A DNA stretch of 64,000 bases from Methylovorus menthalis (lineage in GTDB: Bacteria > Pseudomonadota > Gammaproteobacteria > Burkholderiales > Methylophilaceae), in assembly GCF_020523625.1 (NCBI RefSeq), contig NZ_JAJAQH010000003.1:62001-126000 (forward strand). The letters run 5' to 3'. Below the pieces are notes generated by a model. It worked only from the letters and a program-made list of their open reading frames with translations. It was not told the origin of the DNA and searched no databases. Shown here one piece after another: positions 2,179-35,246 of this stretch. The position numbers were made by a program, and so were the translations under genes. Position 1 is the first letter of the stretch, and the number at the start of each line of letters is the position of its first letter.

Positions 2179-3501
2179 TTATCCCTTGAAGTAGCGATCA
2201 GTTTCCGCCTTGATCACCTTGGAAAGTACCAGCAGGCCGATCAGGTTGGGAATCGCCATCATGCCATTCATCAGGTCCGAGAAATTCCAAACCAGCTCCA
2301 GGCTGATGCTGGCGCCAACGGCGACGGCCAGAGTAAAGACCAAGCGATAAATCTTGATGCTGCGGAAGCCAAACAGGTATTCCACCGCTTTTTCGCCGTA
2401 GTAATTCCAGCCGATGAGGGTGGAGTAGGCAAACAGCGCAGTTGAAATGGCGACGATGTATTTGCCGGTGTCGCCCAGGGTTTCCGCCATGCTGATGCTG
2501 GTGAGCTGGCCTGCGCTGACGCCGTGCTTCCAGGCCGTAGCCGTGAGGATGATGAGCGCGGTCATGGTGCAGACCACCAGCGTATCGATAAAGGTTTGCG
2601 TCATGCTGACCAGTGCCTGGCTGACCGGGTCTTTGGTGCGTGCTGCAGCCGCGGCAATGGGGGCAGAGCCTAAGCCGGATTCATTGGAAAATACACCACG
2701 GGCAATGCCATAACGCATGGCGGCCGCGACCGTTGCCCCGGCAAAGCCGCCGCCTGCCGCTGCCGGGCTGAAGGCGTGATGGAAGATCAGGTAAAACGCA
2801 TGCGGGATTTCGCTCAGGTTATAGGCCAGTACCACCAGGCCACTACCCACATAGACCACGATCATCAGTGGCACCAGATAAGAGGTGAATTTGCCGATGG
2901 ACTTGATGCCGCCGATGATCACGAGGCCGGTCAGTACCATCAGGATAAAGCCGGTGAGTTCGGTGGGGATATGAAAGGTGGATTTGAAGATTTCTGCCGT
3001 GGCATTGGCTTGGGCCATGTTGCCAATGCCAAAGGCAGCACAGGCAGTGAAGAAGGCGAACAACGCACCAAGCCACGGCATGCCCACGCCTTTTGCCAGG
3101 TAGTACATGGGGCCGCCGCGCATGCCATGCGGGCCTTTTTCACGGTATTTGATGGCGAGGACGGCTTCTGAATATTTGGTCACCATGCCGACCAGGCCGG
3201 TCATCCACATCCAGAAGACGGCGCCGGGGCCGCCCAGGGTAATGGCGGTGGCGACGCCAACGATATTGCCGATGCCCACAGTGGCGGCCAATGCCGTCAT
3301 CAGCGCGGCAAAGTGGCTGATATCGCCATCGTGGCCGACTTCTTTCTTGAAAATCAGCTTGAATGCCAGCGGCAGGGTGCGGAACTGCAAACCCTTGAGC
3401 AGCACGGTGAGATAGAGGCCGGTGCCGACCAGCAGGATCAACATGGGTGGCCCCCAGATCCAGCTGGATAGTGTGGCGATAATGCTTTCAATGGTTTGCA
3501 T
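2179..3501 (-). CDS. Sodium:alanine symporter family protein (AGCS)
   Basis: This 440-residue polytopic protein has the AGCS signature: a Trp-rich start with a GPPMLILLVGTGLYLT segment, GGPGAVFWMWMTGLVGM, and the conserved block ARGVFSNESGLGSAPIAAAAA. Members import alanine or glycine with Na+. Its ATG has a good Shine-Dalgarno, AAGGGAG, but this lies inside a small hairpin (TCCCT/AGGGA, 3509-3524) that could partly mask it. The gene is first in the run to the APC permease and the RidA protein. Confidence 0.9.
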   Translation of the reverse strand: MQTIESIIATLSSWIWGPPMLILLVGTGLYLTVLLKGLQFRTLPLAFKLIFKKEVGHDGDISHFAALMTALAATVGIGNIVGVATAITLGGPGAVFWMWMTGLVGMVTKYSEAVLAIKYREKGPHGMRGGPMYYLAKGVGMPWLGALFAFFTACAAFGIGNMAQANATAEIFKSTFHIPTELTGFILMVLTGLVIIGGIKSIGKFTSYLVPLMIVVYVGSGLVVLAYNLSEIPHAFYLIFHHAFSPAAAGGGFAGATVAAAMRYGIARGVFSNESGLGSAPIAAAAARTKDPVSQALVSMTQTFIDTLVVCTMTALIILTATAWKHGVSAGQLTSISMAETLGDTGKYIVAISTALFAYSTLIGWNYYGEKAVEYLFGFRSIKIYRLVFTLAVAVGASISLELVWNFSDLMNGMMAIPNLIGLLVLSKVIKAETDRYFKG

Positions 3502-3551
3502 TTATAACTCCCTTTTTACAGGGATTATAAGCACAAACCGCGCCGATCAAG

Positions 3552-4451
3552 CTAAGCCAGCCAGTTTTTATCGATCAGGAAATCGCTGTAGAGACGGGCT
3601 TCAGGCGAGCCTGCTTCCGGTTTCCAGTCATAGCGCCATTTAACGATGGGTGGCATGGAAAGCAGGATAGACTCTGTGCGGCCATTAGATTGCAGGCCAA
3701 ACAGCGTGCCGCGGTCATACACCAAGTTGAATTCGACATAACGGCCACGACGATAAGCTTGGAAATCGCGCTCGCGCTCGCCATAGGCTATGTCCTTGCG
3801 GCGCTGCACGATAGGCATGTAGGCCTGAATGAAGGCATCGCCCACATTGCGGATCAGGGCAAAACTCTGCTCAAAGCCCAGTTCGTTAAAATCATCAAAG
3901 AAGATGCCGCCTATACCGCGTGGCTCCTTGCGATGCTTGAGGTGGAAATATTCATCGCAATGCTGCTTGAATGCGGGGTAATACTGGCTGCCGAATGGCG
4001 CGAGCGCTTCGCGACACAGACGGTGAAAATGCACGGCATCATCCTCAAAACCATAATAAGGGGTGAGGTCCATGCCGCCGCCAAACCACCAGATAGGTTC
4101 TTCGCCTGGTTTTTCAGCGACAAAAAAGCGCACATTCATATGCACGGTGGGGATGTAAGGGTTGCGCGGGTGAAACACCAGCGAGACACCCATGGCCTTC
4201 CAGCTGCGGCCTGCCGCTTCCGGGTGTGCCACGCTCGCGGATGGCGGCAATTTATTGCCGATCACATGCGAAAAGCCCACGCCTGCACGTTCAAACACAT
4301 TGCCTTCTTCCAGCAGGCAGGAAGTACCGCCGCCGCCTTCCGGGCGCTGCCAGCTGTCATTCAGGAAATTCTTGCCATCAATCAGCTCAATCGCTTCAAC
4401 GATGCGGTTTTGCAGACCTTGCAGATAGTCATATACGGCGTCGGAATTCAT
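3552..4451 (-). CDS. hemF: Oxygen-dependent coproporphyrinogen III oxidase
   Basis: HemF converts coproporphyrinogen III to protoporphyrinogen IX using O2 in haem synthesis. With the ATG at 4451 (GGAG 6 nt upstream) the product is 299 residues, the length usual for HemF. The frame continues to 4526 but the extra residues are unrelated. Family blocks include [49 protein letters not shown] and [16 protein letters not shown], with the conserved His and Asp positions present. It starts 13 bp after tsaC and is probably the last gene of the purH-purD-tsaC-hemF run. Confidence 0.96.
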
Positions 4452-4464
4452 GCGGTGCTCCGGT

Positions 4465-5010
4465 TTAGGGGCGCAAAATGCGTCCGGTGATGAGGTCTTG
4501 TATGGTCGAGGGCTTGCGGGCGCCACCGGTCAGTCCGGCGATGACGCGTACGCGCTGCCCGAAAAGCTGGCGGCACCGACGGGTGGTTTTGGCCGAGGCA
4601 TGGCCCGCCTTGTTGGCACTGGTGGAGACCAGGGCCATGCCCGCCATGCGGCAAAGTCTTGACGACAAGGGGTGTGCTGTCACGCGCACAGCAAGCGAGG
4701 GATGACGACCATGCAGCCAGATGGGGCAGTCTTCTGCGTGCGGCACCAGCCAGGTATGCGGGCCGGGCCAGGTGGTGGCAACGCGCGCTTGCTGTTCGGG
4801 GCTCAATGGTGCAATCAGGCGCTTGAAGCGTGCCTGCTGATCCGCTATCAGGATCAGGCCTTTGCGTTGTGGCCGACCCTTGAGGCGCAGTATGCGCTGC
4901 ACGCCCAGACGGCTATGTGGATCGCACCCAAACCCAAAGCAGGACTCGGTAGGATAGGCAATGACCCCGCCCTGACGCAGGTAATGCCGCAACTCGCGTG
5001 CATTCATCAT
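4465..5010 (-). CDS. tsaC: L-threonylcarbamoyladenylate synthase (YrdC/Sua5 type)
   Basis: This 181-residue single-domain YrdC protein makes threonylcarbamoyl-AMP from Thr, bicarbonate and ATP for tRNA t6A modification. The start [13 protein letters not shown] is the family YPTET-GL block (here E-S instead of E-T). [14 protein letters not shown] matches the conserved K-R-P-KGLI strand, and [10 protein letters not shown] and [10 protein letters not shown] follow. The short form lacks a C-terminal Sua5 domain, as in TsaC of other proteobacteria. It starts 12 bp after purD. Confidence 0.93.
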
Positions 5011-5022
5011 TGCCGTTTACTC

Positions 5023-6291
5023 TCAGGATTTGACGGCGCGGTAGCCGATATCCTTGCGCATCTGCGCGCCATCAAAATGAATCTCTTCGGCGATCTGGTA
5101 AGCACGGCTTTGTGCGTATTTCACGGTTTCGCCCAGCGCGGTAACGCAGAGTACACGGCCACCGCTGGTCAGCACGCGGCCATCTTCCAGTCGAGTGCCA
5201 GCATGAAACACATGGGCATCCTGCAGATCACGCGGCAGGCCGGTGATTTTATCACCGGTACGCGGGGTATCAGGGTAATTGGAGGCGGCCATCACCACGC
5301 CCAGCGCGGTGCGGCGATCCCAATCCACCGTCGCCTGGTCCAGCGTGCCGTTGACGGCATGCTCGGCCAGACCCACGAGGTCCGTCTTGAGACGCAGCAT
5401 GATGGGCTGGGTTTCCGGGTCGCCCATGCGGCAGTTGAATTCCAGCGTCTTGACGTCGCCTTCGGGCGTAATCATCAGGCCCGCATACAAAAAGCCGGTG
5501 TAGGGAATGCCATCCTTCGCCATGCCCGCGACGGTGGGGGCAATGATTTCGCGCATTACCTTGGCATGAATGTCAGGGGTGACCACAGGGGCTGGAGAAT
5601 ATGCCCCCATGCCGCCGGTGTTAGGGCCTTGGTCGCCATCCAGCAAGCGTTTGTGGTCCTGGCTGGTGGCCAGAGGCAGGATATTCTTGCCATCGACCAT
5701 CACGATAAAGCTGGCTTCTTCGCCAGTCAGGAACTCTTCAATCACCACGCGGGCACCAGCAGCCCCCAGCTTGTTGTCAGCCAGCATGGCGTCAATCGCG
5801 GCATGGGCTTCATCTTCATCCATGGCCACGACCACGCCCTTGCCTGCCGCCAAGCCATCGGCCTTGATGACGATAGGCGCGCCTTGTGCACGCACATAGT
5901 CGTGGGCAGCAGCAGCATCGGTAAACGTGCCATAGGCGGCTGTCGGGATGCCATGGCGTATCATGAACGCCTTGGCAAAATCCTTGGAGCTTTCCAGTTG
6001 GGCAGCTGCCTTGGTGGGGCCGAAAATCTTCAGGTCATTGGCGCGGAAAGTATCTACGACACCTTGCGAAAGCGGGGCTTCCGGGCCGACGATGGTGAGG
6101 GCGATCTGCTCCTTGAGCGCAAATTCCAGAAGATCGGCTACCGAGGAGGCGGGGACGTTGACCATGTCCGGGTTAAGCGCGGTGCCAGCATTGCCCGGGG
6201 CCACGTAAACGCGGCTGATATTGGGGTTTTGCGTAACTTTCCAGGCCAGTGCATGTTCGCGGCCACCGCTGCCAATGACGAGTACTTTCAT
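5023..6291 (-). CDS. purD: Phosphoribosylamine-glycine ligase (GARS)
   Basis: PurD joins glycine to phosphoribosylamine with ATP in the second step of purine synthesis. The 422-residue length is standard. The N-terminal domain begins MKVLVIGSGGREHALAWK, the signature of the family. The ATP-grasp core shows PIVIKADGLAAGKGV, VVIEEFLTGEEASF and the metal-binding segment LEFNCRMGDPETQ. It follows purH by about 100 bp on the same strand, the usual purHD order. Confidence 0.97.
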   Translation of the reverse strand: MKVLVIGSGGREHALAWKVTQNPNISRVYVAPGNAGTALNPDMVNVPASSVADLLEFALKEQIALTIVGPEAPLSQGVVDTFRANDLKIFGPTKAAAQLESSKDFAKAFMIRHGIPTAAYGTFTDAAAAHDYVRAQGAPIVIKADGLAAGKGVVVAMDEDEAHAAIDAMLADNKLGAAGARVVIEEFLTGEEASFIVMVDGKNILPLATSQDHKRLLDGDQGPNTGGMGAYSPAPVVTPDIHAKVMREIIAPTVAGMAKDGIPYTGFLYAGLMITPEGDVKTLEFNCRMGDPETQPIMLRLKTDLVGLAEHAVNGTLDQATVDWDRRTALGVVMAASNYPDTPRTGDKITGLPRDLQDAHVFHAGTRLEDGRVLTSGGRVLCVTALGETVKYAQSRAYQIAEEIHFDGAQMRKDIGYRAVKS

Positions 6292-31198: not shown

Positions 31199-31225
31199 TT
31201 AGCACTCAACCCTATAGAGTGCTAA
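31199..31225 (-). promoter_or_regulatory. CIRCE operator (HrcA site)
   Basis: TTAGCACTC-N9-GAGTGCTAA matches the CIRCE consensus at every arm position. It lies 70 bp upstream of groES. HrcA binding here should repress groESL until heat shock. Confidence 0.95.
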
Positions 31226-31386: not shown

Positions 31387-32862
31387 ATGCCCAGGATTGC
31401 TGAGTTCGGAAAAAATATAAGGTCAACTTTCGCGGCCTTTATAATTCAGCCGTTACAATTTCAGTATATTCAGTTACTAAATAATAAAAACGCATTTTCT
31501 CAATTGAGCTTACAACTTCGATCCATTTTGATACTAGGGTACGGCAGCATCGGACAAGGCCTCACCGAAATACTGCTACGACACTTTTCCCTGGCTCCTC
31601 ATCAAATCATCATCATCGCAGCAGACGATGACGGCGCAATCGTAGCCGCGCATTTTGGGTTGTCGATCATTACATTGCGTCTGGATGAAGGTAATTATGA
31701 AAAGACGATCAGCCGCTACCTGCAGCCAGGCAGTCTCCTGATCAATGTATCTGTGGAAGTATCCTCAAAATCGTTAGTGGAGTGGTGTCGACCTCGGCAA
31801 GTCCTTTACCTCGATACCTGTGTGGAGCCTTGGGCTGGTGGATACCATAGGGCAGATGACCATGCTTTGACGACAAACTATTTTTTGCGGCATGAGATAT
31901 TGAAAGATAGTCGGCCTGGCGACCCTACAGCTATCGTAGCCCATGGGGCAAACCCGGGCCTGGTCAGTCACCTTGTGAAGGAGGGGTTGCAATCTCTCGC
32001 CACCTTGAGGGGTTTAGATCACTGGCACTCATGGCCGGACCTTGCACAACAACTTGGCGTAAAGGTCATTCAGGTGGCCGAGCGCGACACCCAATATACA
32101 AGGCTGCCACTACCCGCAGAGCATTTTTACAATACCTGGTCCGTAGATGGGTTGCTCGCTGAAGCGTGGCAGCCAGCCGAAATGGGTTGGGGCAGCCATG
32201 AGCAAACACTCCCGTTTGATGCACATCGGCATACATCAGGCGATCAGTCTGGCATTTATCTTGATCGCCATAGCATGGATATCAGGGTCAAATCGTGGGT
32301 GCCGTCAGTCGGTCCACAAGAGGCTTTGCTGCTTTCTCATCATGAAGCGCTGTCAATTGCCAATTGGTTGACCATGCCAGTAGACGGGCTTGATGGTTCA
32401 ACTTATTACCGGCCTACGGTTTACTATGCTTATCATCCCGCTCCAATTGCATTAGAGTCATTAAATAATTGGAGGGCTAACCAGTACCAACCGCCATTTG
32501 TAACCAAGGTTCTGAGAGATGAACTGGAGAATGGTATGGATCAGTTGGGCGTGCTACTTGTATTTGAGGGCGGTGCTTATTGGTATGGCTCGACATTGAC
32601 ACTTATAGAGGCACGCGAGCTTTCGCTCTTCAATAGTGCGACTTCTCTGCAAGTCGTGGCTGGCATCATTGGCGCCATTAGCTGGATGCTGGAAAATCCT
32701 GTCAAGGGTGTCATTGAAGCGGAATATGTGGACCATGGATATGTCATGCGCATTGCGCGCCCGTACCTTGGGCATGTTGGTGGCGTTCTCACAGACTGGC
32801 AACCACATTCAACAGGTGGCTTACAGTTTGAAGATTTCCTTATAAAAAAACACAATGAATGA
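31387..32862 (+). CDS. hss: Homospermidine synthase
   Basis: Homospermidine synthase joins aminobutyl groups from putrescine or spermidine to give homospermidine, with NAD+ bound tightly. The Rossmann start SILILGYGSIGQGLTE and the blocks YLDTCVEPWAGGY, VAHGANPGLVSHL, ERDTQYT, NTWSVDG and the C-terminal DWQPHSTG are those of the saccharopine-dehydrogenase-like Hss family. The ATG at 31387 gives 491 residues with a 45-residue extension before the Rossmann fold; a TTG at 31504 would fit the family better. Neither has a clear ribosome site. It heads a plus-strand group with an ATP-grasp ligase. The region upstream (31256-31386) is AT-rich. Confidence 0.9.
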   Translation: MPRIAEFGKNIRSTFAAFIIQPLQFQYIQLLNNKNAFSQLSLQLRSILILGYGSIGQGLTEILLRHFSLAPHQIIIIAADDDGAIVAAHFGLSIITLRLDEGNYEKTISRYLQPGSLLINVSVEVSSKSLVEWCRPRQVLYLDTCVEPWAGGYHRADDHALTTNYFLRHEILKDSRPGDPTAIVAHGANPGLVSHLVKEGLQSLATLRGLDHWHSWPDLAQQLGVKVIQVAERDTQYTRLPLPAEHFYNTWSVDGLLAEAWQPAEMGWGSHEQTLPFDAHRHTSGDQSGIYLDRHSMDIRVKSWVPSVGPQEALLLSHHEALSIANWLTMPVDGLDGSTYYRPTVYYAYHPAPIALESLNNWRANQYQPPFVTKVLRDELENGMDQLGVLLVFEGGAYWYGSTLTLIEARELSLFNSATSLQVVAGIIGAISWMLENPVKGVIEAEYVDHGYVMRIARPYLGHVGGVLTDWQPHSTGGLQFEDFLIKKHNE

Positions 32863-32887
32863 ACGTTGATACATTAAGGGAGACAAT

Positions 32888-33295
32888 TTGAAGAAAAAAT
32901 CGGTATCGGTGCCGCTGATTATCCTTGGCAGCCTGAGCTTGTCCGCATGTGACCCACAACCACTCAATGATGTGCAACAACAGGTATATAACAGTCGCGA
33001 AGAATGTGAGCGTGACTGGAATGATGGCCAGTCTTGCACAGACAATCCGAATGGTGAGCCTACCAACGATCATAATCCCTATTATGTGTACGGCCCCCGC
33101 TGGTATGGCCCTCGTTATTATTGGGATCATGATTTGCAACGCCCAGTGCAGTTGCGTCAGGATGGTACGACGCGGGTCATCAACAATAGCCGCATCAATT
33201 CATCAAGTGGATATAGCAGCAATTCCACTACGATTGGCAAAATTGATCGCGGCGGTTTTGGCTACACCGCACGCGGTTTTTCCGGAGGCGGTTAA
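32888..33295 (+). CDS. YgiB-like (DUF1190) lipoprotein with Gly-rich C-terminus
   Basis: A 135-residue protein from TTG 32888 (AGGGAGA upstream). It has a lipoprotein signal ending LSAC followed by Asp; Asp at position +2 is the inner-membrane retention signal in enterics. The middle has the DUF1190-like NSREECERDWNDG and a Tyr/Trp/Pro-rich stretch, then an Asn/Ser-rich linker. The end reads RGGFGYTARGFSGGG; RGGFG recalls the tail of E. coli YgiB. The terminal Gly codons also form the Shine-Dalgarno (GGAGG) of the next gene. It may be the peptide substrate of the adjacent ligase; that is inference. Confidence 0.75.
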   Translation: MKKKSVSVPLIILGSLSLSACDPQPLNDVQQQVYNSREECERDWNDGQSCTDNPNGEPTNDHNPYYVYGPRWYGPRYYWDHDLQRPVQLRQDGTTRVINNSRINSSSGYSSNSTTIGKIDRGGFGYTARGFSGGG

Positions 33296-33297
33296 AT

Positions 33298-34416
33298 ATG
33301 CAGCGCCTTACGATAACGCCCCGCCCGGATGCCGGTAAAAAGCTGGAGCAACAGGGACTCTCTTTCCACAATTGGGACGACTACTGGAAAGAAGACGCCT
33401 GTTATCAATTTACCCTGACTCAGATAGAGGAAATTGAAACCGCCACCGAAAACCTTTATGCCATGTGCCAACAGGCCTTACAGCTTGTGATTGATCAACA
33501 GCGCCTTGGCCAGTTGGGTATTCCAGAAATGTTCTGGCAGGCTATCCGCCAGTCCTGGGAAAAAGCTGACTTCTCGATTTATGGTCGCTTTGACCTTGCC
33601 TACGATGGCAAGAGTCCGCCCAAGATGCTGGAATACAATGCGGACACCCCGACCTCCCTGCTGGAGTCGGCAGTCTGCCAGTGGTACTGGCTGGAGGATG
33701 TATTTCCACAGCATGACCAGTTCAACTCGCTCCATGAAAAACTGGTAGACCGATGGAAAGCCTTGCCCAAAGGTGCGCCTGTTCATCTCACTTCATTGCT
33801 GGATAATGAAGAGGACTGGGTATGTGCCATGTACATGCTTGATACCGTCACACAGGCAGGGCACCAGGCCAAGCATATCTTTGTCGAAGATATTGGTTGG
33901 GACGAGGACCTCAAGTGTTTTGTGGACATGGAAACTGAGCCAATAGCTCGGCTGTTCAAGCTTTATCCCTGGGAGTGGATGATGCGGGAATCCTTTGCAG
34001 AACATGTTCTACAGGCACCGACACGTTTTATCGAACCACTCTGGAAGTCCGTGCTGTCCTGTAAAGGGCTGCTCCCCGTCTTGTGGGAGCTGTTTCCAGG
34101 TCACCCCAATCTGCTCCCTGCCTATTTTGATGCTGGCAAGCTTGCTTCGTATGCGCGTAAGCCGCTCTATTCGCGTGAGGGAGCCAACATTCAGCTAGTC
34201 AGGAATGGCCAGTTGATTGCGGAGGATGATGGCCCTTATGGTGCGGAAGGCTATATTTATCAGGAGCTATATGACATCCCGGTGTTTGATGGAAAATATC
34301 CTGTGATTGGTTCCTGGGTGGTGAATGGAGAGCCTGCCGGCATGTGCATACGCGAAGATGTGAAAGCCATTACCACCAATATGAGCAACTTTGTCCCGCA
34401 TTTTTTTACTGAGTGA
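33298..34416 (+). CDS. Glutathionylspermidine synthase-like ATP-grasp ligase (YgiC/YjfC type)
   Basis: A 372-residue protein with the GspS-synthetase type ATP-grasp fold: YGRFDLAYDG, MLEYNADTPTSLLES, KPLYSREGANI and the closing NFVPHFF. E. coli GspS makes an amide between the glycine carboxylate of glutathione and spermidine. This protein lacks the N-terminal amidase (CHAP) domain of GspS, as do YgiC and YjfC, whose substrates are not established. It starts 2 bp after the lipoprotein gene and lies in one run with homospermidine synthase and a DUF350 protein. That predicts a ligase using a polyamine. Confidence 0.88.
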   Translation: MQRLTITPRPDAGKKLEQQGLSFHNWDDYWKEDACYQFTLTQIEEIETATENLYAMCQQALQLVIDQQRLGQLGIPEMFWQAIRQSWEKADFSIYGRFDLAYDGKSPPKMLEYNADTPTSLLESAVCQWYWLEDVFPQHDQFNSLHEKLVDRWKALPKGAPVHLTSLLDNEEDWVCAMYMLDTVTQAGHQAKHIFVEDIGWDEDLKCFVDMETEPIARLFKLYPWEWMMRESFAEHVLQAPTRFIEPLWKSVLSCKGLLPVLWELFPGHPNLLPAYFDAGKLASYARKPLYSREGANIQLVRNGQLIAEDDGPYGAEGYIYQELYDIPVFDGKYPVIGSWVVNGEPAGMCIREDVKAITTNMSNFVPHFFTE

Positions 34417-34438
34417 ATTGAATAAAAAGGATAACTCC

Positions 34439-34819
34439 ATGATCAACAGCATTGCTGCTTTTCTGTCCTATTTGGGTGTTGCCATCCTGCTATTGGGCGC
34501 ATTTATGGCTATCTATGTCCAGATCACCCCATACAAAGAATTCAAGCTGATTGCACAAGGCAATGCTGCCGCAGCAATTTCCTTGTCAGGCGCAGTGCTC
34601 GGCTTCACTTTCCCATTGCTTGCCTCCATCTACTATACCCAATCCTTGCTCGAAATGACCATATGGGCAGGCATTACCTGCATTGTTCAGCTACTGGTCT
34701 TCACCGTCATGCGGCACTGGGCAAAACATATTGAAGATGGCGTACTGGCACCGGCCATTATATTGGCTGCATTGTCCATGAGTGTTGGCCTGCTGAATGC
34801 AGTGAGTATCAGCCATTAA
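34439..34819 (+). CDS. DUF350 (YjfL-like) membrane protein
   Basis: A 126-residue protein from ATG 34439 (AAAGGATAAC upstream) with four hydrophobic helices. The pattern matches DUF350: YKEFKLIAQGNAAAAISLSGAVLGFTFPL, then IWAGITCIVQLLVF. DUF350 proteins occur next to YgiC/YjfC-type ATP-grasp ligases in many bacteria and are thought to act with them at the inner membrane, but no activity is known. It follows the ligase by 22 bp. Confidence 0.88.
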   Translation: MINSIAAFLSYLGVAILLLGAFMAIYVQITPYKEFKLIAQGNAAAAISLSGAVLGFTFPLLASIYYTQSLLEMTIWAGITCIVQLLVFTVMRHWAKHIEDGVLAPAIILAALSMSVGLLNAVSISH

Positions 34820-34836
34820 GTGATCAAGGACTTATC

Positions 34837-34887
34837 ATGAATTACCTCATTCACTTCCAGAAGATATTACTTTGGTCACCCAGTTAA
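34837..34887 (+). CDS. Possible 16-codon leader ORF
   Basis: The frame MNYLIHFQKILLWSPS has an ideal Shine-Dalgarno (AAGGA, 6 nt spacing) that the following zinc-finger gene lacks. Its stop is 15 bp before the ATG of that gene, so translational coupling is possible. It could equally be a decayed former start. Not recognisable by similarity. Confidence 0.35.
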   Translation: MNYLIHFQKILLWSPS

Positions 34888-34901
34888 CAGGCTGCAATCA
34901 A

Positions 34902-35246
34902 ATGGCCAATAAAGAAGTTGGATATCAATGGACATGCCAGGTGTGCGATCAGAGCAACTCACCGCAAGCGAATGTATGTGCCAGATGTCAATTTCCATCG
35001 CACGCTTCAGGCAGGGAGATTGAGGCCGCAAAAATGGCATTTTCCAATGGTGATCCAACGCAAGGTATTGCCAAGGATGTAAATGAGTTGGGGATAATCA
35101 TCGGGATTTTGCTGCTGTGTACGGGCGGATTTTTGATGAAGTTTTGTTGGGAAAGTGGAGGATCTGCTCCCGGTATCGTATTAATTCTTCTTGGCGCATT
35201 AATACTTAACCTTAGCGGGTATGTTTGGCCGAAGAGAAAAGGTTAG
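34902..35246 (+). CDS. Small membrane protein with RanBP2-type zinc finger
   Basis: From ATG 34902 the protein has 114 residues; a TTG at 34872 would add ten. Near the N-terminus, WTCQVCDQSNSPQANVCARC fits W-x-C-x2-C-x3-N-x6-C-x2-C, the exact pattern of RanBP2-type zinc fingers, which bind single-stranded RNA or ubiquitin in eukaryotes. Two hydrophobic helices follow (IIIGILLLCTGGFLMKFCW and PGIVLILLGALILNLSGYV). The finger should face the cytoplasm or periplasm side of the inner membrane. It is the last gene of the homospermidine/ATP-grasp run. The function is unknown. Confidence 0.7.
   Translation: MANKEVGYQWTCQVCDQSNSPQANVCARCQFPSHASGREIEAAKMAFSNGDPTQGIAKDVNELGIIIGILLLCTGGFLMKFCWESGGSAPGIVLILLGALILNLSGYVWPKRKG

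Follow-up and report, generated by a model that had tools for sequence, protein, structure and literature searches.

The locus analysed here raises the question of which acid and which amine are joined by a putative ATP-grasp ligase encoded beside a homospermidine synthase (Hss). It lies in a 64,000-nucleotide stretch of Methylovorus menthalis DNA (contig NZ_JAJAQH010000003.1, positions 62,001 to 126,000), which we call the window. The genes for Hss, a small lipoprotein, a YgiC/YjfC-type ligase, and a DUF350 protein form a tight operon (Table 1), and the same set was found together again in other genomes when loci were compared. A sequence-only reading of the window had described a group of five genes on one strand with spacings mostly under 30 bp. 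Five plus-strand open reading frames (ORFs) are present, with gaps of 25, 2, 22, and 82 bp, three of which are under 30 bp. Gene order, protein families, conserved residues, co-occurrence, the conservation of a C-terminal tail on the lipoprotein, and the exchange of one polyamine synthase for another suggest that the operon is a polyamine-to-protein conjugation system. In this system, the ligase would amidate the C-terminus of the lipoprotein with homospermidine. We consider this assignment probable, and are more certain of the amine than of the acid.

Pfam searches bore out the identities proposed from the letters alone for Hss, the ligase, and the DUF350 protein. Hss is a two-domain saccharopine-dehydrogenase-like protein with Sacchrp_dh domains PF03435 and PF16653 (E 2.4e-24 and 2.9e-19), the ligase contains the GSP_synth domain (PF03738, E 2.6e-148) and lacks an amidase domain, and the DUF350 protein matches PF03994 (E 3.3e-29). 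The genome contains one PF03738 gene. The closest solved chains to its product are YgiC (7uk8, E 3.4e-106) and YjfC (7uk6, E 3e-95), and the closest relative found is from Methylobacillus glycogenes (83%). In E. coli, YgiC and YjfC are annotated in RefSeq as peptide-spermidine ligases; the paper behind this annotation is Pederick 2023. Ligase residues R97, D99, E112, and N114 are each at least 97% conserved among 106 aligned ligases. Judged by eye, they are equivalent to the pairs R139/D141 and E163/N165 of the fungal ATP-grasp enzyme Cp1B, in which alanine variants reportedly abolish or strongly cut activity (PMC12568646). The ligase is predicted to perform peptide-polyamine ligation. Membership among the bifunctional glutathionylspermidine synthetases (Gss) was rejected, since the ligase has no N-terminal CHAP amidase and reaches 165 bits with the NCBIfam Gss model, the cut-off of which is 882. 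The ligase of locus L024 is split into two ORFs.

The window Hss matches 14 homospermidine synthase sequences in the PDB over almost its whole chain, with E-values from 1.4e-113 to 4.7e-91. Seven catalytic residues (E117, N162, E210, W229, E237, H296, and E298) were taken from work on the Blastochloris enzyme, BvHSS, whose numbering they follow (PMC8489232). All seven are kept in the window Hss and in the other 15 rows of ligase-linked Hss, except for E117 in the frameshifted locus L020. The window enzyme is predicted to make homospermidine from putrescine. The true start of hss is probably TTG 31504 and not ATG 31387, because the protein beginning at the former (SLQLRSILILGYG) aligns with the start of the M. 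glycogenes Hss (L020, MSFLQQSILILGFG), and because matches of the longest window ORF to solved chains start at residues 44-47. The hss gene of M. glycogenes JCM 2850 (L020, 6020-7485) is frameshifted, owing to either an assembly error or a broken gene.

The sequence-only reading had left the choice of carboxylate open. The lipoprotein is proposed as the acid because it carries a conserved tail and is encoded beside the ligase. A C-terminal R[GS]GFG tail is common to the window lipoprotein and to YgiB and YjfM of E. coli, which are relatives with DUF1190. An R[GS]GFG or close pattern followed by a Ser/Gly-rich tail ends the ligase-adjacent ORF in 94 of 99 loci, and GFG variants are present in the other five. 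The pattern consisted of [RTNHKQ], [GSN], G, [FL], and G in that order, at most 50 residues from the end. The 99 loci include three duplicates (L013 and L053, L015 and L086, L019 and L030), which leaves 96 distinct loci, 91 of them fitting the pattern. The tail proteins range across several phyla. An alignment of 46 of them (A1) has a mean column identity of 18%, and its sole invariant columns are G123 and G125, the two glycines of GFG. The columns conserved at 90% or more are the arginine and phenylalanine of the motif, together with one leucine and one tyrosine near the N-terminus. The motif is followed by 5-30 residues, the last of which is glycine or serine in 96 of 103 tail proteins (L046 excluded), as opposed to 110 of 840 mechanically called ORFs of at least 300 residues, some of which are not real genes. 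The gene for the tail protein overlaps the ligase start or stops at most 25 bp before the ligase in 84 of 104 cases.

The lipoprotein had been described as DUF1190-like. This holds for its relatives, 30 of 46 of which match DUF1190 (PF06693) in the alignment at E ≤ 0.1, and does not hold for the window protein itself, which has no Pfam match at E ≤ 1 and none to DUF1190 at 0.1. Its AlphaFold model has a low to middling predicted local distance difference test (pLDDT) score of 66.7, with residues 122-135 under 50, as might be expected for a flexible tail. The best hit in a fold search with this model had an E-value of 2.2. Lipidation was rejected as a conserved feature of the system, as the lipobox cysteine is absent from L012, L022, L025, L026, and L031 of the Hss-type clade and from the alphaproteobacterial L074 and L099. 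The tail is far less variable across loci than either lipidation or the position of DUF350.

The tail protein and the ligase occur in the same genomes. Among 200 genomes sampled from the order, the tail-protein profile matches all 19 that have the ligase. There is one further match among the 181 others (G193), which was rejected as chance (E 0.0059, a 58-residue frame with a stop). A sample of 369 genomes of the class was drawn independently. PF03738 is present in 22 of these genomes, comprising 17 YgiC-type ligases (including that of the window), three distant ones, and two fragments. The tail-protein profile matches 15 genomes, all among these 22, and none of the 347 ligase-free genomes. The match in G282 was dismissed as chance, since it contains four stops and lies on a different contig from the ligase. 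When the 16 other YgiC-type loci of the class sample were read, ten had a canonical tail, and variants were observed in G496 (RGGFT...SGG) and in G320 and G549 (RSGFFGG...GG). Two bifunctional Gss genes that carry a CHAP amidase domain (L196 and L197) served as a control and have no nearby R[GS]GFG-tail protein.

The same pairing is found in E. coli and in phages. The ygiB gene, whose product has the tail RGGFG...MGG, is directly upstream of ygiC with a gap of 5 bp, and yjfM, whose product ends RGGYGRSSSARGHWGG (RGGYG...WGG), is directly upstream of yjfC with a gap of 2 bp. The ligase is present in 138 phage-collection records, some of which are bacterial contigs by name. Of eight such loci that were read, six have a tail protein near the ligase, with up to two intervening genes (Motura, OC, Phosso, 44RR2.8t.2, LemonAid, and MD-2021a). 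MD-2021a is filed as a phage; its neighbouring genes, guanine deaminase and others, look chromosomal, and it may be bacterial DNA. The order in Motura is hss, tail lipoprotein, ligase, a small ORF, and a DUF350-like protein, and the other seven loci showed neither DUF350 nor Hss within flanks of 3-5 kb. In the T4-like phage 44RR2.8t.2 (L151, 690-1613), a protein resembling, by eye, a band-7/SPFH membrane protein is located near the tail lipoprotein and ligase.

The amine is proposed to be the polyamine made in the operon, because the Hss position is taken by an S-adenosylmethionine decarboxylase (AdoMetDC)-spermidine synthase fusion in Collimonas and Undibacterium. Within the order sample, the ligase is present in 19 genomes, Hss in 32, and both in eight. 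The two genes are adjacent in three of the eight (the window, G082, and G180), whose ligases belong to one clade, and are on different contigs in G012, G060, G131, and G181. A wider set comprised the best 80 of 337 ligase loci, picked by likeness to the window ligase. In this set, Hss is immediately upstream of the lipoprotein and ligase in all 12 loci with a ligase identity of at least 58% (L020-L031), and it was seen in none of the 68 loci with an identity of at most 53%, many of which are cut by contig ends. The ligase tree groups the Hss-type rows together (Shimodaira-Hasegawa-like approximate likelihood ratio test (SH-aLRT) 97). In the Hss tree, the 16 ligase-linked rows, two of which are identical, cluster apart from 27 unlinked sequences from the same order (SH-aLRT 100); both trees are quick ones without bootstraps and with several long branches. 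Co-occurrence of the ligase with Hss in relatives, named in the sequence-only reading as a check, therefore holds inside the clade to which the ligase belongs (phage Motura and 14 of 15 distinct bacterial members) and not outside it. The 68 distant loci, together with the four order genomes that have the two genes on different contigs, led us to reject a general linkage of Hss to YgiC-type ligases.

The fusion occupies the Hss position in eight loci, namely L038, L042, and L050 of Collimonas, L058, L060, L061, and L078 of Undibacterium, and L085. It was identified by Pfam in L058 and by BLAST in the other seven, of which L042 and L085 are truncated at contig ends. The eight fusion-type ligases form one clade of the ligase tree, and Hss is absent from the four fusion-type genomes searched. 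In the 15 Hss-type genome handles, which represent 14 distinct genomes, the operon Hss is the only one at E ≤ 1e-20, with the M. glycogenes copy in two frameshifted pieces, and none has AdoMetDC. NspC was above the cut-off in none of 18 genomes, a search that did not target carboxyspermidine dehydrogenase separately. Putrescine is likely to be available, since an OKR-type decarboxylase is present in all 18 genomes searched. Most other YgiC-type loci have neither Hss nor AdoMetDC-spermidine synthase nearby, and AdoMetDC is present somewhere in 14 of 35 other genomes searched. Homospermidine is probably the only triamine made by the window genome. The slot swap supports the earlier suggestion that homospermidine is the amine.

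Based on these observations, a mechanism can be proposed, in which we infer the activities of both enzymes, which amine and acid are joined, whether tagging comes before export, and the role of DUF350. Hss would convert putrescine into homospermidine. The ligase would use ATP to phosphorylate the carboxylate at the C-terminus of the neighbouring lipoprotein and would couple it to an amino group of homospermidine through an amide bond. The R[GS]GFG motif may act as a docking site, and the Gly/Ser-rich tail may let the end of the lipoprotein reach the active site. The tagged lipoprotein would then be exported or anchored in the membrane, so that a polycationic tail is placed at the cell envelope, where DUF350 may act at the membrane together with the tagged protein. 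More broadly, we lean towards protein polyamination as a dedicated post-translational modification in bacteria and their phages. YgiC/YjfC-type ligases would amidate tail-bearing envelope proteins (YgiB, YjfM, and relatives) at the C-terminal carboxylate with the triamine of the cell, which would be spermidine or, in the window clade, homospermidine, with the R[GS]GFG tail serving as the substrate tag.

Several observations weigh against this proposal. The last residue of the tail varies (Gly 55, Ser 41, then Thr, Glu, and Ala), which is odd for one strict carboxylate site, and cyanobacterial tails end KG. Tagging would have to come before translocation, since a cytoplasmic location is expected for the ligase and export for the lipoprotein. 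In the class sample, the canonical tail gene and the ligase of G386 are on different contigs, RGGFG in G501 is followed by an unusual 40-residue end, G528 has no GFG, and no tail protein was found in G440, which is 58% complete and has its ligase at a contig edge. None was seen in phage DSS3_VP1, where the record ends, or in the unannotated MT836935. In G532 (L198), where the ligase is very distant (E 4.2e-18) and has no amidase, the next gene encodes a 351-residue protein that ends MGGFG...GAGG, so these lipoproteins are not the only proteins with a GFG-and-Gly end. Within the Hss-type ligase clade, L012 (G052) has no adjacent Hss, and an Hss elsewhere in its genome runs to the end of another contig. 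Spermidine-synthase-domain matches exceed the Pfam cut-off in 12 of the 15 Hss-type handles (best E 3.7e-14 versus 1.9e-39 to 9.9e-44 for the fusions), and these genomes might encode some aminopropyl-transferase-like protein.

Three other explanations were weighed. The variable terminal residue, and an internal motif so strict that it resembles a binding site more than a reaction site, would fit a tail that is not a substrate. R[GS]GFG would then scaffold the ligase, DUF350, or another membrane partner, and the acid would be something else. The occurrence of these genes in PspA-type envelope-stress operons, reported in PMC11237479, points the same way. We nevertheless regard this explanation as rather unlikely, since the tails differ in length and yet nearly all end in glycine or serine, and since among the phage-collection loci DUF350 was seen only in the flanks of Motura and the tail in six of eight. 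Alternatively, the ligase could join glutathione or another short peptide to homospermidine. The resulting glutathionylhomospermidine would be a storage or redox metabolite, as already proposed for betaproteobacterial hss-gss clusters in PMC9992855. The ligase belongs to the superfamily of glutathionylspermidine synthetase and trypanothione synthetase, and the label of peptide-spermidine ligase is compatible with small peptides. However, the lack of an amidase domain and the low Gss score argue against it, as does the absence of Gss activity in E. coli YgiC (Sui 2012, as cited in PMC12506659). It also leaves the widespread tail partner unexplained, a partner that the two CHAP-bearing Gss genes examined do not have. 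We consider this product unlikely.

The remaining alternative concerns only the amine: Hss may just keep the polyamine supply high, while the substrate of the ligase is putrescine or a polyamine taken up from outside. The frequency of YgiC-type loci without an adjacent polyamine synthase does imply that the ligase can probably use whichever polyamine is available. This alternative is nonetheless doubtful, given that Hss and AdoMetDC-spermidine synthase fill the slot in separate ligase clades, and that the operon Hss groups apart from its unlinked homologues. The amidation of the lipoprotein with homospermidine remains our preferred explanation.

Individual loci differ in the arrangement of the tail genes and in the ends of their tails. 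In L157 (G180, 3253-5556), hss is flanked by two tail-bearing lipoprotein genes, with tails RGGFGGTGRGGSAGG and RGGFGGIGHGFSGGG, and this operon may have two ligase substrates. The tails of the cyanobacterial loci L048, L062-L064, L067, L070, and L071 end RGGGKG, with lysine next to last, which is not the case for the other tails listed. The 351-residue protein beside the very distant GSP_synth protein in L198 (522-1574) ends MGGFGKEIPIPEDSGGGGLVGSGAGG. In L036 (568-3235) of the Verrucomicrobia, the order is DUF350, tail protein, and ligase, with a DUF4178 protein directly after; other Verrucomicrobia loci have an unidentified ORF at the DUF4178 position.

Aspartate at position +2 of a lipoprotein is an inner-membrane retention signal of the E. 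coli type. The window lipoprotein has aspartate at +2, which would fit the suggested location of the system in the inner membrane; the residue varies among relatives, and is aspartate in only two of the 58 with a recognised lipobox. The DUF350 model contains four long helices, in keeping with four transmembrane helices (pLDDT 94.2), and a PDB fold search with it gave no match (best E 0.86). The zinc-finger membrane protein, which had been included in the gene group, is present next to DUF350 with a RanBP finger (PF00641) of 27.5 bits at a cut-off of 27. It lies 82 bp downstream of the DUF350 gene and was rejected as a member of the system, since it has no tblastn match at E ≤ 1e-3 in any other locus of the comparison set. 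The nearest genes flanking the operon encode GroES, an EAL protein, and a helicase. Between groES, on the minus strand, and hss is a perfect inverted repeat, TTAGCACTC-N9-GAGTGCTAA (31199-31225), with no matches in 100 shuffles, which we take to be of the CIRCE type. Scans of the operon for promoters and terminators gave scores no better than shuffled sequence. The sole Rfam match in the window is anti-hemB, a Burkholderia RNA (RF02837, 20699-20787, 67.5 bits), far from the operon. The operon appears to be accessory, since neither ligase nor Hss is present in the one other genome of the genus and the four of the family in the order sample.

Table 1 Features of the operon and the adjacent gene (positions in the window)
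Feature	Position	Strand	Remarks
hss, homospermidine synthase	31504..32862	+	probable TTG start 31504; longest ORF 31387-32862 from ATG 31387
Small lipoprotein, proposed acid substrate of ligase	32888..33295	+	TTG start; lipobox LSAC; mature protein 115 residues
C-terminal tail of lipoprotein, RGGFGYTARGFSGGG	33248..33292	+	near-invariant R[GS]GFG motif and flexible Gly-ending tail
YgiC/YjfC-type ATP-grasp acid-amine ligase	33298..34416	+	PF03738; 372 residues; no amidase domain
Ligase RxD...ExN residues R97, D99, E112, N114	33586..33639	+	probable catalytic motif
DUF350 (YjfL-type) membrane protein	34439..34819	+	PF03994; four long helices
RanBP-type zinc-finger membrane protein	34902..35246	+	PF00641; adjacent, probably outside conserved unit

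YgiC/YjfC-type ligases are present in E. coli, several phyla, and the 138 phage-collection records, and their acid substrate appears unsettled in the literature searched. The conserved tail of the neighbouring protein provides a direct, testable candidate. If the proposal is correct, bacteria modify their envelope lipoproteins with a charged polyamine, phages encode the same pair of enzyme and substrate, and the exchange of Hss for AdoMetDC-spermidine synthase tells which amine to expect in which genome. As far as the literature was searched, the linkage of Hss to the ligase and the general chemistry are already known, and our additions are the synthase exchange along ligase clades and the widespread tail. 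The tail as a substrate was not found in the open literature searched, and the primary YgiC/YjfC paper may already contain the idea.

Comparison with known systems qualifies the earlier description of YgiC/YjfC-type ligases near DUF350 as functionally unresolved, given the peptide-spermidine ligase annotation and the published hss-gss clustering (PMC9992855). That paper (PNAS 2023) reports hss-gss clusters, the same gene pair as in the window operon, in Achromobacter phage Motura and betaproteobacteria, and suggests glutathionylhomospermidine. Its cluster figure marks hypothetical and DUF genes, and its section on the clusters leaves undiscussed the small in-between protein, which is here the predicted substrate. 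According to PMC11237479, CesT/Tir-PspA operons likewise combine the ligase, DUF350, a DUF1190 lipoprotein, and polyamine genes, with variants carrying AdoMetDC and polyamine oxidase where the window operon has Hss. Genes for PspA, CesT/Tir, band-7, and potassium channel proteins are absent from the window operon, to which the search for PspA was confined. The ygiB-ygiC and yjfIJKLM-yjfC operons of E. coli share with the window operon the ligase family and a DUF1190 lipoprotein with the same type of tail, and yjf also has DUF350. Unlike the window operon, they lack a polyamine synthase, and yjf adds PspA-like, DUF2170, and DUF2491 genes. The attachment site of polyamines on ubiquitin and ubiquitin-like proteins is the C-terminal glycine. 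In the ubiquitin- and SUMO-spermidine conjugates of eukaryotes, as described in PMC12270671, the polyamine is joined to ubiquitin or a ubiquitin-like protein by E2 enzymes, whereas the system proposed here would employ an ATP-grasp ligase and a dedicated lipoprotein.

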